Shown here in pieces: positions 2,605 to 6,182 of a stretch of 64,000 bases of DNA. Under the pieces are notes generated by a model, which worked only from the letters and a program-made list of their open reading frames with translations, made no database searches and had not been told where the DNA came from. Each line of letters begins with the position of its first letter. The stretch's first letter is position 1. The DNA is from Actinomycetes bacterium (lineage in GTDB: Bacteria > Actinomycetota > Acidimicrobiia > Acidimicrobiales > Aldehydirespiratoraceae), in NCBI GenBank assembly GCA_024276495.1, contig JAJRXC010000107.1, forward strand, positions 93,025 to 157,024. Direction: 5' to 3'. Position numbers and translations under genes: made by a program.

Positions 2605-3168
2605 ATGGATGTCGTCGTCGCTGTGCATGCCGCCGCCGCGCTGTTGTTGCTCGTCGCCGGCATCGCCAAGATCGTGCGTCCGGGACCGACCGCCGACCTC
2701 CTCGTCTCGCTCGGGCTGCCGGCCGACGAACGTCTCACGCGGGGGATCGGCGTGGTCGAGTCGGCGGTCGGGATCGTCGCGCTCGGCGTCGGTGGCCCGT
2801 GGCCGGCCGCGGCGACCGGCGGGTTCTACGTCGCGTTCGTCGTGGTCGTCGTGCGGGCAATCGGTGCGGGGGCGACGTCGTGTGGCTGCTTCGGTCGGGT
2901 CGACGCCCCGCCGTCGTGGATCCATGTGATCGGCAACCTGGTGCTCGCCGCGGTGTCGTTCGCCGCGATCGGTGGCGACACGGCGGTCGAGGTCATGGAC
3001 GGTCAACCGGCGGGCGGGATCGGGTTCGTGCTGCTCGTGGGCGTGCTCGCCGGTCTCTGCCTGGTGGCCTTCACCGCGCTGCCCGAGGCGCTCGGTGCAC
3101 GAAAGGGCGGCGCCACCCCGGTGGCGTTCCGAATCGACCCCCGCCACGACCCGGAGGACGCGTCGTGA
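2605..3168 (+). CDS. MauE/DoxX-like membrane protein
   Basis: A 187-aa integral membrane protein with four hydrophobic segments, resembling the MauE family. MauE is needed with MauD for disulfide formation during maturation of the methylamine dehydrogenase light chain. A Cys pair in the context TSCGCFGRVD at about residues 92-94 fits the conserved CGCFG signature of MauE-like proteins and may exchange electrons with the MauD-like thioredoxin encoded two genes downstream. It is the first gene of an operon in which most junctions overlap by 4 nt; its TGA overlaps the GTG of the next gene. The start is leaderless (TACGTT, 6 nt upstream). The family call is firm at the level of fold and motif, while the partner assignment is inferred from context. 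Confidence 0.75.
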   Translation: MDVVVAVHAAAALLLLVAGIAKIVRPGPTADLLVSLGLPADERLTRGIGVVESAVGIVALGVGGPWPAAATGGFYVAFVVVVVRAIGAGATSCGCFGRVDAPPSWIHVIGNLVLAAVSFAAIGGDTAVEVMDGQPAGGIGFVLLVGVLAGLCLVAFTALPEALGARKGGATPVAFRIDPRHDPEDAS

Positions 3169-4340
3169 GCCGCCGGGTCGTCGCCGCACTCAGCCGGGTC
3201 GTCGACCAGCGCGCGTCGCGGCGAGGGTTCCTGTCCCGCTCGGCGCTGGGTGCCACCGCGCTCGCCGTCGCGCCTGCGACGTTCGCGCTGCGGCCGACCA
3301 CCGCGCTCGCCGCGATCTGTGCCTGCGCGGGATCCGAATGCGATTGCGACGCCCGCTGCTGCGACGGCTACACCGACTTCTGCTGTCAGATGACCGGTGA
3401 GAACCTCTGTCCGCCCAACACGTTGGTCGCCGGGTGGTGGAAGGCCGACGGCAGCGGGTTCTGCGATGTCGACGGCAGGCCGCGGCCCCGCTACTACCTC
3501 GACTGCAACCTGATCTGCGACGACGGCTGCGGCTGCGGCGGCGCCGGGGTCTGCGCGTCGGAGTGCACATCGGCTCGGTGTCGTTGTCTCGACGGGTGCG
3601 ACTCGCGGGCCGTCGACTGCACCCGGTTCCGCTACGGACAGTGCAACCAGGATGTCGAATGTGTCGGACCGATCGCCTGCCGGATCGTGACCTGTGTCGT
3701 GCCGTGGCAGTGGGACCCGTCTTGCAAGGACGGCCCGAACCTGACCGACAACGGCACCCGCTTCCACGATCGACCCTGCCTCCACGACGGGTTCACCGAC
3801 GTCGCCCCGTCGGCGTTCTACACCGAGGCGGTCGCGTGGGCGACGGAGGCCGGTGTGGCCACCGGCTACAGCAGCGACATCTTCGGCCCGGGCGAGTTGG
3901 CCCCACGATCGCACATGGCCACCTTCTTGTGGCGGTACCGGGGGAGTCCGCGGCCCCTGCGACCGGCGCCGTTCACCGACGTCCCCGCCGGCGCCTGGTT
4001 CGCCGACGCGGTGGCGTGGATGGCCGAGACCGGCCTCACCACCGGCACCGCGACCGGCCGGTTCTCGCCCGGCCAGTTCGTCACCCGGGGCGAGGCGGTG
4101 ACGTTCCTCTGGCGCCTCGCCGGCTCGCCGGCACCGACGACGCACGCGATCCCGTTCGTCGACGTGCCCGACAACGCGTTCTACCGACGAGCGGTCGCGT
4201 GGGCGGTGGAGAACGGCATCACCACGGGCCTCAACGAATTCCTCTTCGGGGGAGGGTTCTGGATCGACCGGGCCCAGGTCGTGACGTTCCTGCACCGCTA
4301 CGAACTGCGTTTCGGTGCCCTCGTCGAGGTGTCGTCATGA
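3165..4340 (+). CDS. Tat-exported methylamine dehydrogenase light-chain-like Cys-rich protein with three SLH domains
   Basis: A 391-aa exported protein. A twin-arginine signal (RRGFLSRSALG, about residues 19-29) is followed by a hydrophobic stretch to the ALAA site near residue 50. Residues 51-190 form a very Cys-rich domain with over 20 Cys. Its spacing, and the segments LCPPNTLVAGWW and YYLDCN, resemble the methylamine dehydrogenase light chain (PF02975-type). Residues 208-382 hold three S-layer homology repeats (FTDVAP..., FTDVPAGAWF..., FVDVPDNAFY...), which bind secondary wall polymers and should anchor the protein outside the cell. The light chain normally carries a TTQ cofactor made from two Trp. 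The first has a plausible equivalent here (W91/W92), but the second position appears to be Gln in YGQC (158-160). No heavy chain or MauG is encoded nearby, so catalytic amine oxidation is doubtful. Flanked by MauE- and MauD-like genes with 4-nt overlaps. Confidence 0.75.
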   Translation: MSRRVVAALSRVVDQRASRRGFLSRSALGATALAVAPATFALRPTTALAAICACAGSECDCDARCCDGYTDFCCQMTGENLCPPNTLVAGWWKADGSGFCDVDGRPRPRYYLDCNLICDDGCGCGGAGVCASECTSARCRCLDGCDSRAVDCTRFRYGQCNQDVECVGPIACRIVTCVVPWQWDPSCKDGPNLTDNGTRFHDRPCLHDGFTDVAPSAFYTEAVAWATEAGVATGYSSDIFGPGELAPRSHMATFLWRYRGSPRPLRPAPFTDVPAGAWFADAVAWMAETGLTTGTATGRFSPGQFVTRGEAVTFLWRLAGSPAPTTHAIPFVDVPDNAFYRRAVAWAVENGITTGLNEFLFGGGFWIDRAQVVTFLHRYELRFGALVEVSS

Positions 4341-5065
4341 TCGTTCTCGTCATCGGGTTGACGATCGCGGTCGCCGTTCTCACGGTCATCGTGTTCGGGC
4401 TGCTGCGGACCCATGCCGAGATCCTCCGAGCGTTGGATCGGGCCGGCGTCGCCCTCGACGACGGCGAGGGGACCGCCGGTGCGGCCGGCCCGGTTCCGGT
4501 CGCGAACCCCCGATCGCGCACCGACGCGGTCGACGTCACCGGGACGGTGCCCGGGGGTGGGCCGGTGAACGTCTCGGTCGGCGGCGACCGCCACACCCTC
4601 CTCGCCTTCTTGTCGTCGGGATGTCGGACGTGCCAGGCGTTCTGGACGGAGTTCGCGTCGTCGTCGCTCGAACTGCCCGGACACGACACCCGACTCGTGA
4701 TCGTGGCCCAGGATCCGGCGCACGATTCCGAGAGCCGCCTGGCCGAGCTCGCGCCGCCCGGCGTGCGAATCGTGTGTTCCTCCGAGGCCTGGCACGCCTA
4801 CGAGGTGCCGGGGTCACCCTATTTCGTCCTCGTCGACGGCACGACCGGCCGGGTGTCGGGTTCGGGTACGGCCACCAGCTGGTCGCAGGTCCACGGTCTG
4901 TTGCGCCGTGCCCTCGACGACAGTGCCCTCGACGGCTCGACCTCCGGCGGCCGCGTCGATGCCGCGCTCGCCGCGTCGGGCATCGGTCCCGACCACCCGA
5001 GCCTCTACCCCGAGTCGGCGGGTCCACCGGCACCGATCACCGACCCGGACGAGGAGCTCGAGTGA
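4337..5065 (+). CDS. MauD/TlpA-like membrane-anchored thioredoxin
   Basis: A 242-aa protein with one N-terminal transmembrane helix (about residues 2-22), a Pro/Gly-rich linker to about residue 75, and a thioredoxin-fold domain facing the outside. The redox motif is C96-R-T-C99 (LLAFLSSGCRTC), and a cis-Pro equivalent is in VPGSPYF. This matches MauD, the thiol-disulfide protein required for methylamine dehydrogenase light-chain maturation. It probably forms or isomerises disulfides in the Cys-rich SLH protein encoded just upstream, with electrons passed through the MauE-like protein. ATG overlaps the previous TGA by 4 nt. After the fold an acidic Pro-rich tail of about 40 residues has no assigned role. 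Confidence 0.78.
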   Translation: MIVLVIGLTIAVAVLTVIVFGLLRTHAEILRALDRAGVALDDGEGTAGAAGPVPVANPRSRTDAVDVTGTVPGGGPVNVSVGGDRHTLLAFLSSGCRTCQAFWTEFASSSLELPGHDTRLVIVAQDPAHDSESRLAELAPPGVRIVCSSEAWHAYEVPGSPYFVLVDGTTGRVSGSGTATSWSQVHGLLRRALDDSALDGSTSGGRVDAALAASGIGPDHPSLYPESAGPPAPITDPDEELE

Positions 5066-5133
5066 GCCCGCCGTTCGTGCTCGCGCTGGTCGTCGGCGTC
5101 GCGGCCGCCGTTCGGGCCGCCTGGTCGCCTTGA
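5062..5133 (+). CDS. Putative 23-aa membrane micropeptide
   Basis: A GTG-started 23-codon frame overlaps the MauD-like stop by 4 nt (GTGA), exactly like the other junctions of this operon. It encodes a single hydrophobic helix (about residues 5-18, Val/Ala/Leu-rich) ending RAAWSP. It fills nearly all the gap to the next ATG at 5143, and its TGA sits in the region giving that gene's ribosome binding site (AGGGACG). Tiny single-helix proteins often stabilise membrane complexes. Conservation in relatives would be needed to prove it is translated. Confidence 0.4.
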   Translation: MSPPFVLALVVGVAAAVRAAWSP

Positions 5134-5142
5134 GGGACGTCG

Positions 5143-5727
5143 ATGCTCACCAGCATCACTCCGCTCGGGGAGCGGGGACGGGGACAGCGATGGGCCACCA
5201 CGTCGGCGTGGTTGATGGCCGGTCATCTCGTCGGCGGACTCGCCCTCGGTGCCGTGCTGGGAGGCGTCGGCGCCGTGGGCCGGCGGCTGGCCGCCCCGGT
5301 GGACGAGCCGATGTCCACTTCGATCATCGGGGTGGTGGTGATGCTGGCCGCGGGGTTCGATCTGGCGGGTCGGCGTCTTCCCGGCCGCCGGCAGGTCGAT
5401 GAACGCTGGTTGACCACCTATCGCGGCTGGGTGTACGGCGGCGGGTTCGGTGTCCAGCTGGGGTTCGGTCTCGTCACCGTCGTCAACACCGCCCTGGTCA
5501 TCGCGGTGCTGGTGGCCGGTGTGCTCCTCCCGTTCGGCGACGCCGTCGTGCTCGGGGTCGTCTACGGCGGCGTGCGGGGTCTCGGCGCCACGGCGACCGG
5601 ATGGGTGCGATCCGTTGCCGATGTGCGTCGGCTCCATCGGTGGCTGGACCACTCGGAGCGGGCGGCCCGATGGATCGTGGCCGGCCTCGGTGCCGCGAGC
5701 GCGATCGTGGCGGTGGCGTTGGCATGA
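5143..5727 (+). CDS. Polytopic membrane protein of the MauE/MauD-like operon
   Basis: A 194-aa Cys-free membrane protein with about five hydrophobic helices: roughly residues 23-47, 58-75, 100-125, 126-145 and 172-192. I do not recognise the family. Mau clusters contain MauF, a multi-spanning protein of unknown biochemical role, and this protein occupies an equivalent position, but length and motifs do not establish homology. The lack of Cys argues against a CcdA/DsbD-type electron carrier. It has an AGGGACG Shine-Dalgarno before ATG 5143, and its stop overlaps the next ATG by 4 nt. It is likely to act with the exported Cys-rich SLH protein, which is inference from operon structure only. Confidence 0.6.
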   Translation: MLTSITPLGERGRGQRWATTSAWLMAGHLVGGLALGAVLGGVGAVGRRLAAPVDEPMSTSIIGVVVMLAAGFDLAGRRLPGRRQVDERWLTTYRGWVYGGGFGVQLGFGLVTVVNTALVIAVLVAGVLLPFGDAVVLGVVYGGVRGLGATATGWVRSVADVRRLHRWLDHSERAARWIVAGLGAASAIVAVALA

Positions 5728-6182
5728 GGAGCGGCACCACGCTGGCGGCCAACGGGATCCGCGTCGCGGTCCGGCGCGGTTGGGAGGCCGAGTTCCGTGT
5801 TCTCGACCGTCGACCCGGTCAGCCGGAGCTGTCGGTCGTGCATCTCGCCAACTTCGGGCTGCCACCGGAGCGGGGTGACTACGGCTCCGGCGCGGTCGAG
5901 ACGATGGACAGCGGCGGCATTCTCGTGATCCTCACGGAGTTCGGCGCGGGGTCGCGCGATGCCGCGCTCTTCTCCGGCGGCGGGGTTCCCACCGGGCTCG
6001 ATGTCGGCGACTTCTCACCCGACTCGCTGCAACACCGCTTCCCGGGGCGCGCCGGCGTCCAACAGTTCTTCCGCGTCGCCGAGCGGGCCTTTGGGCTGCA
6101 TGTCGTGTTGGGCTCGGCCCGCGCCGCGCCATTGCTGGTCCCCGAGGTGAACCGCACCCTGGCCGGGGTCTCGATCCGCTGA
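5724..6182 (+). CDS. Hypothetical protein closing the MauE/MauD-like operon
   Basis: A 152-aa soluble protein with no signal peptide or membrane helix and no family I recognise. It has a beta-rich N-terminal half with an acidic segment near FGLPPERGDYGSGAVETM, and a C-terminal half containing FPGRAGVQQFFRVAERAFGLHVVLGS. The absence of Cys separates it from the redox proteins upstream. Its ATG overlaps the preceding TGA by 4 nt, so it belongs to the same transcript. A strong hairpin at the stop codon ends the operon. It may be a cytosolic partner of the membrane protein before it, but nothing in the sequence shows this. Confidence 0.6.
   Translation: MRSGTTLAANGIRVAVRRGWEAEFRVLDRRPGQPELSVVHLANFGLPPERGDYGSGAVETMDSGGILVILTEFGAGSRDAALFSGGGVPTGLDVGDFSPDSLQHRFPGRAGVQQFFRVAERAFGLHVVLGSARAAPLLVPEVNRTLAGVSIR

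Follow-up and report, generated by a model that had tools for sequence, protein, structure and literature searches.

What are maturation proteins of methylamine dehydrogenase (MADH) doing beside the gene of an exported cysteine-rich protein, and why does one of their genes appear to be cut in two by a stop codon? Both questions arise from an operon at positions 2605-6182 (+ strand) of the window, by which we mean the whole 64,000-nucleotide (nt) stretch of contig JAJRXC010000107.1 (assembly GCA_024276495.1) from an Acidimicrobiales bacterium of the phylum Actinomycetota, whose genome assembly comprises 4.33 Mb in 111 contigs and is 97% complete. An earlier, sequence-only reading of the window had described six genes, among them a micropeptide (5062-5133) and a polytopic membrane protein (5143-5727), and its frames are present where it placed them. 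The operon is real and recurrent, but it has five genes: the micropeptide and the membrane protein are one frame, broken solely by the TGA at 5131-5133, and this frame very probably encodes a homologue of MauF with selenocysteine (Sec) at the UGA. We regard the Sec-coded MauF, which had been missed, as the strongest new point of the analysis; the earlier reading is otherwise supported in part. With 5062-5727 counted as a single gene, the operon has four junctions, and every one is a 4-nt overlap, including GTGA between the genes of MauE and the Cys-rich protein, the MauD/MauF junction and the junction between MauF and the last gene, F6.

A MauF homologue interrupted by an in-frame UGA

The gene and the elements around its UGA are the following.

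5062-5727, + strand: Sec-MauF, a MauF-like polytopic membrane protein of 221 amino acids with putative Sec at residue 24 (U24) via UGA read-through (MauF profiles in both directions)
5131-5133, + strand: in-frame UGA, the proposed Sec codon in WSP-U-G, aligned with a Cys codon in homologues
5142-5157, + strand: hairpin GATGCT-NNNN-AGCATC immediately 3' of the UGA, its six pairs conserved in UGA loci
5159-5177, + strand: candidate bacterial Sec insertion sequence (SECIS) hairpin CTCCGCTC[GGG]GAGCGGGG, with its loop 33 nt past the UGA (model of PMC13188914)

Profile comparisons in both directions identify the protein. A profile of its family (hereafter E5, the MauF domain) scores 61.4 bits against Paracoccus MauF, 42.7 against Indioceanicola MauF and 36.1 against a Thermomicrobium roseum protein, with the next of the 26 reference proteins at 2.6. 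In the reverse search, a profile of two proteobacterial MauF proteins found 94 matches at E < 10 among 12,906 open reading frames, of which 66 were E5 proteins, including all of the first 65. Judged by these sequence comparisons, the membrane protein of the operon is a MauF homologue. Pfam and NCBIfam models gave noise only, for E5 and for MauF. We presume a likeness between the WSPCG of MauF and the SPC motif of CcdA; CcdA was sought by motif in the fetched loci as a test of kinship between MauF and CcdA/DsbD, and none was seen.

The window frame reads VSPP...VRAAWSP-U-GTSMLTSITPLGERGRG. A short frame ending in WSP followed by a stop is present at 53 of the 55 loci with MauD directly upstream of E5; of the remaining two, one (L214) also shows such a frame and the other (L090) is of the Cys type. 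T. roseum likewise has a short frame that ends in WSP before a stop. The Cys homologues read through the same stretch unbroken, as RSTWSPCGLSMLSTITP in the window's class and as STWSPCGYSSISLLRP in Paracoccus MauF. A scan of 109 loci, which required that the site hold Cys or a stop and be followed by Gly or Ala, found TGA in 58, TGC or TGT in 24, and TAA or TAG in none, with 27 showing no site. In an unconditioned check, anchored on the downstream MauF domain alone, 75 of 87 MauF matches have W-S/A-P upstream; the site in these 75 holds TGA (57) or a Cys codon (18) and nothing else, and Gly follows directly in every one. The 12 remaining matches are six misplaced starts of Cys-type loci, two that are cut or contain N, and four paralogues (L239, L240, L244 and L248). 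At L240, L244 and L248 the paralogue frame begins immediately after a TGA, and the hydrophobic stretch that precedes this TGA does not contain WSP. A further 80 loci, partly on the same contigs as the first set, show TGA in 57, Cys in three and no site in 20. The UGA form is present at L150, from Acidimicrobiia bacterium EGI L10123.

Taken as a true stop, the UGA would instead divide the frame into two genes, one for a hydrophobic micropeptide and one for a short MauF starting from an ATG four codons on, as ordinary gene calling has it. The ATG is kept in 57 of the 58 UGA loci, and UGA is the commonest stop among the other called genes of these loci (299 TGA, 101 TAG and 21 TAA in 421 non-cassette genes, by our own calls), both as a pair of genes would have it. 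Yet the Cys homologues span the site as one protein while keeping the same Met in 21 of 24 loci, neither TAA nor TAG takes the place of UGA, the Gly after the UGA is invariant (57/57) though all four Gly codons are used, and the hairpin described below exceeds coding needs. We therefore consider two separate genes very unlikely. A change of code is also unlikely, because UGA is an ordinary stop in these loci.

SECIS-like hairpins downstream of the UGA

The hairpin immediately after the UGA has all six pairs in 49 of 58 UGA loci and in 2 of 24 Cys loci. Inside it, Ser is encoded by AGC in 57 of the 57 UGA loci that have Ser at this place, and by mixed codons in the Cys loci. A second hairpin, CCGCTC-GGN-GAGCGG, is complete in 34 of 58 UGA loci and in none of the 24 Cys loci; one lineage has CTCCCC-GGTC-GGGGAG instead. 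The loop of this second hairpin begins with GG about 29-33 nt past the UGA, in agreement with the bacterial SECIS model given in the Figure 2 legend of PMC13188914. That model has a spacing of 16-37 nt, a G in the first two loop bases, a loop of 3-9 nt, a stem of 4-16 bp and an energy of at most -7.5. The window passes this strict model, as do 50 of the 58 UGA loci, against a mean of 21.7 and a maximum of 31 in 200 synonymous resamplings; 4 of 24 Cys loci pass, against a resampled mean of 4.0.

Covariation was assessed in 42 UGA loci, 15 loci of one lineage and T. roseum being excluded for their differing second hairpin. Here 98.1% of the pair cells form, and double-sided changes are found in three pairs (a number reached by 4 of 500 shuffles) and 6 cells in total (0 of 500). 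In 22 Cys loci, 62.2% of the pair cells form, with no excess. Folding energy lies below that of synonymous controls by 1.10 standard deviations in UGA loci vs 0.44 in Cys loci over 48 bases, and by 1.08 vs 0.32 over 42 bases; this gap shrinks at longer spans (0.65 vs 0.42 over 54 bases, 0.61 vs 0.35 over 60).

Selenocysteine machinery in UGA-type genomes

The genome of the window has matches to SelA (394.9 bits, cut-off 267.9) and SelB (275.3 bits, cut-off 242.25), located 44 bases apart on one contig, and to tRNA-Sec (RF01852, best E 1.1e-12). No tRNA-Sec was found near selA within a 19 kb stretch. The site could be read in 60 class genomes, and the tRNA-Sec search gives a match at E <= 1e-10 in 34 of the 39 that are UGA-type vs 6 of the 21 that are Cys-type (Fisher p 7.9e-6; G378, which carries both forms, is counted as UGA). 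The E values in these 60 genomes form two groups, at <= 3.2e-11 and at >= 3.2e-9. ARAGORN, applied to the 11 strongest of 30 fetched tRNA-Sec loci, called tRNA-Sec with anticodon TCA in all 11, and one of these (L261) comes from a UGA-type genome. When the Sec/Cys (U/C) state of the site is placed on the tree, four changes are counted, of which at least three are forced by supported branches, with long-branch warnings.

Several results weigh against this reading. The 1e-10 line was chosen after the values had been seen; the tRNA-Sec search matches 394 of 395 genomes at E <= 0.001 and puts 280 of 395 over the Rfam cut-off, and neither of these thresholds separates the UGA-type from the Cys-type genomes. 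In five UGA-type genomes (G100, G210, G324, G345 and G359) the search gives nothing at E <= 1e-10; four of these assemblies are 68-94% complete and in hundreds of contigs, and that of G324 is 93% complete in about 40 contigs. Conversely, six Cys-type genomes do have a strong match. The Fisher p overstates the link because the tree offers just two to three independent U/C contrasts. As to the hairpins, eight UGA loci including T. roseum fail the strict SECIS model, the covariation is small (the structure slid by 3 columns scores 0.054 vs 0.060), and the RNAalifold consensus is weak (-3.9) for UGA loci, with none for Cys loci. Finally, E5 has no second conserved Cys.

We nonetheless hold that MauF is very probably encoded with Sec at UGA 5131-5133. 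If the UGA were instead read through as another amino acid (Cys, Trp or a near-cognate one), the five UGA-type genomes without a strong tRNA-Sec match would be accommodated, but the window's genome has matches to SelA and SelB as well as a strong one to tRNA-Sec, the site holds Cys, not Trp, in homologues, and the hairpin fits the SECIS model, which leaves this alternative with very little credit.

A recurrent set of five genes

The other features of the operon are given below.

2605-3168, + strand: MauE-like membrane protein of 187 amino acids with a CGC motif (PF07291, 56.4 bits, cut-off 27)
3165-4340, + strand: Cys-rich protein of 391 amino acids with a Tat-type leader (by eye), a Cys-rich domain and three S-layer homology (SLH) domains (PF00395)
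3303-3785, + strand: Cys-rich domain, residues 47-207, with motifs CC.GyteFCC, CPPgt..GWW, RYY.DC and FRYGQC (alignments)
3786-4337, + strand: three SLH domains (PF00395, 3 stretches, E 3.4e-24)
4337-5065, + strand: MauD-like membrane-tethered thioredoxin-like protein with a CRTC motif (TIGR02661, E 6.9e-5, below cut-off)
5724-6182, + strand: F6, a small protein without evident leader and with a predicted PsbP/Mog1-like fold (AlphaFold, Foldseek, VIA)

Gene-neighbourhood comparison shows that the set, with MauF as a third maturation protein beside MauE and MauD, recurs across the phylum. We compared 81 loci, each selected by its Cys-rich domain: that of the window, 60 from its class and 20 from genomes elsewhere in the phylum, with two of the fetched stretches derived from one genome (G378). 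All five families are present in the fetched stretch at 62 of the 81 loci and at least four at 80. E5 alone is missing from 14, MauE alone from three, MauD alone from one, and both E5 and F6 from one, with contig ends and runs of N accounting for some of these gaps. The order of the genes varies, including MauE-Cys-MauD-MauF-F6, MauD-MauF-F6-MauE-Cys and MauE-MauD-MauF-F6-Cys among others.

Profile searches of 395 class genomes found the Cys-rich domain at E <= 0.001 in 89 (with short or weak matches in G075, G099 and G341), F6 in 89 and the MauF domain in 91. With weak fragments retained in the counts, the Cys-rich domain occurs together with F6 in 85 genomes and with MauF in 84, all three are found in 84, and 296 have none. 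This co-occurrence extends to genomes with MauF outside the operon: in G110, G190 and G346, MauF and the Cys-rich gene are on one large contig, at least 300 kb apart. Eleven operon-external MauF copies were fetched (L229-L236, L243, L245 and L246), and all 11 have Cys instead of UGA. Searches of plasmids with the Cys-rich domain and with Sec-MauF gave no match. No conserved partner enzyme was found beside the cassette in the 81 loci, the neighbours of which were not scanned with Pfam; a single neighbour family, of secreted proteins that are SLH-like by eye, is found near the cassette in 22 of the 81 loci, and no other is present in more than 11.

The assignment of the first gene to MauE is borne out by a PF07291 score of more than twice the cut-off, and its SCGCFG motif is largely conserved. 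For the MauD-like protein the CRTC motif is present and TIGR02661 matches, but at 22.4 bits, far below the equivalog cut-off of 188.6 bits; a profile of the window's MauD family matches six proteobacterial MauD proteins at 35-52 bits. F6 has no Pfam or NCBIfam family match. Its AlphaFold model, with a predicted local distance difference test (pLDDT) score of 93, is closest to the structures of PsbP, EagT6 and Tsi3 (Foldseek best E 0.0081), from which we tentatively assign it a PsbP/Mog1-like arrangement. Alignment to Tsi3 by VIA reached Z 7.2 (root-mean-square deviation 3.5 over 106), which is below Z 8 and counts against the assignment. MauJ was also tried as an identity for F6, with no match in profile comparison.

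The Cys-rich protein and amine dehydrogenase light chains

The Cys-rich protein begins with a twin-arginine leader, SRRGFL (read by eye), and ends in three SLH domains, as the sequence-only reading had described. Invariant residues in the alignment of its Cys-rich domain include FC, CP, GWW, RY, DC and FRYGQC. The region C-terminal to the domain differs by lineage, with SLH domains in the window's kin and other regions elsewhere (types by eye), and at L072, L075, L077, L089, L090 and L217-L219 at most five residues follow the domain. Because this region varies, wall anchoring appears to be an addition, and the Cys-rich domain the core of the protein.

That the domain is like a light chain of MADH, as had been claimed, is not confirmed by the Pfam model: PF02975 has no match at E <= 1 to the window protein or to any of 27 aligned Cys-rich domains. 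The likeness was seen by eye, to the CPPGT...W...C...YRDC of the MADH light chain, and other methods were divided on it. Searches of the window's genome with PF02975 and PF06433 (MauB) gave no match, and no control genome was positive either, so absence is not established. Neither the Cys-rich protein nor its profile found anything when searched against PDB sequences, and the family profile has no HMMER match to MauA or to the T. roseum light chains. Comparison by hhalign gave E 0.018 against proteobacterial light chains, 0.0063 when those of T. roseum were added and 0.002 when the two T. roseum chains were used by themselves, with low probabilities (2.5-13.7%) over the three comparisons; the real scores were matched or exceeded by 24, 8 and 0 of 480 column permutations, respectively. 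Structure prediction likewise points weakly to light chains. For an AlphaFold model of the domain with pLDDT 80, the top Foldseek match is the MADH light chain 1mae_L (E 0.33, not significant), and light chains of MADH or aromatic amine dehydrogenase (AADH) make up 7 of the first 50 rows, none significant. VIA-align listed no light chain and no Z >= 2 for the same model, though failure to match does not prove that the structures differ.

We consider descent from, or kinship with, an amine dehydrogenase light chain plausible, not proven, and somewhat the better of two accounts. The other, in which the domain is unrelated and two Cys-rich Tat-type proteins converged in using the same maturation proteins, is only moderately less probable. 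It fits the failed PF02975, HMMER and PDB profile searches, the VIA result and the low hhalign probabilities. Set against it are the rank of the light chains in Foldseek, the hhalign score against the two T. roseum chains, which exceeds all 480 column-permuted controls, and the presence of MauD, MauE and MauF in both systems.

Two further accounts concern the nature of the product. A precursor of a ribosomally synthesized and post-translationally modified peptide (RiPP) has been proposed for some MauE clusters of Streptomyces, where candidates with mauE, and one with mauD, are found beside Cys-rich precursors (PMC7794033). The domain here is long, strongly conserved and fused to different C-terminal regions in many lineages, and no further gene family is widely recurrent beside its gene, so that a RiPP-like precursor is most improbable. 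Still less can be said for the small subunit of a working amine dehydrogenase with the tryptophan tryptophylquinone (TTQ) cofactor and a partner encoded elsewhere: the complete MauD/E/F set and the grouping of light chains, propeller-like proteins and UGA-type MauF in T. roseum would suit it, but the GWW of the domain corresponds to the first TTQ Trp and the Gln of FRYGQC apparently to the second (aligned by eye beyond the CPPGT..W region), which makes TTQ unlikely, and, besides the lack of any widely shared neighbour family, there is no match to MauB (in a search without positive control) or to the MauG family. The lack of a MauG-family match agrees with the sequence-only reading, PF03150 having 0 matches in the genome and a positive control in 2 genomes.

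A proposed disulfide pathway

Paracoccus requires MauD and MauE for its methylamine metabolism, and a role for MauE in disulfide formation in the small subunit of MADH has been suggested (PMC7794033). The operon, as had been claimed, joins such a maturation set to an exported Cys-rich protein with the build of a surface protein. We judge it probable that the five genes make one surface protein together with a MauD/MauE/Sec-MauF disulfide pathway separate from amine dehydrogenase. The Cys-rich protein would be made in the cytosol, exported via the twin-arginine translocation (Tat) pathway and held in the wall by its SLH domains, with MauD (CxxC, tethered to the membrane), MauE (CGC, in the membrane) and MauF pairing its many cysteines on the outside. 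The sole conserved redox residue of MauF would be the Sec inserted at the UGA, which would undergo rapid, reversible redox change within the membrane or close to it. Probably F6 is a dedicated partner in the cytosol, for example a chaperone of the reduced precursor; this chaperone role is a guess from the absence of a leader. The direction of electron flow through the trio is likewise inferred, as is the function of the product at the surface, structural or redox.

Disulfide installation by MauD, MauE and MauF is the likely function of the set, because here MauD and MauE, plus MauF, accompany a Tat-type Cys-rich protein other than the MADH small subunit. At L239 (5550-7735), a MauE-like protein (assigned from its position and by eye), a MauD-like protein and a MauF paralogue that begins right after a TGA are found with a different Tat-type Cys-rich protein of 136 amino acids and 18 Cys, and this pairing of such a trio with a second Cys-rich client supports its role as a disulfide installer. 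A more specific version, in which MauF is the first selenoprotein of the MADH maturation set and its client a partnerless, quinone-less descendant of the small subunit with a new catalytic or electron-transfer role in the wall, we regard as unlikely.

If these assignments are true, a small conserved set in bacteria of a little-studied group apparently exports a cysteine-packed protein, ties it to the surface and bonds it by disulfides, and the MauD/MauE/MauF trio may be a general tool for Cys-rich exported proteins beyond amine dehydrogenase. MauF would represent a new selenoprotein family, present in Actinomycetota and also in T. roseum, whose members are split in two by ordinary gene calling. 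The Cys or Sec of WSP(C/U)G would give the little-understood MauF a redox residue open to testing, and the 58 UGA and 24 Cys loci would offer a natural comparison on the need of a membrane thiol protein for selenium.

Comparison with known systems

The prokaryotic selenoprotein catalogue describes Sec in place of a redox Cys, as proposed here, together with the bacterial SECIS model, and its Table 1 has no MauF or WSPUG entry (PMC13188914). No MauF selenoprotein was found in the parts considered of the literature, including PMC7794033, PMC12013277, PMC9312934, PMC1088965 and PMC13188914. The decRiPPter candidates of Streptomyces resemble the operon in having MauE, and in one case MauD, next to Cys-rich products that are not part of methylamine metabolism, and they differ in that the passages of PMC7794033 considered here describe no MauF, Sec or wall-anchored protein.

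The mau cluster of Paracoccus denitrificans shares MauE, MauD and MauF with the operon, along with a Tat-type Cys-rich small protein. In contrast to that cluster, the operon is without the large subunit, amicyanin, MauJ and MauG, its MauF is UGA-coded and shorter (221 vs 277 amino acids), its Cys-rich protein bears wall anchors, and F6 is extra, with no counterpart in the 26 reference proteins. The megaplasmid cluster of T. roseum (L220 1-9325, NC_011961) also has MauE, MauD and MauF, the last with a UGA in LWSP-TGA-G, together with two light-chain-like proteins, one of which scores 36.2 bits for PF02975 (cut-off 25). It differs in having three further proteins that look propeller-like (weak Pfam matches, E 0.026-0.41, or none) and a MauE with a long N-terminal extension, and its light chains retain the second Trp (NWC), where the Cys-rich domain of the window seems to have Gln.

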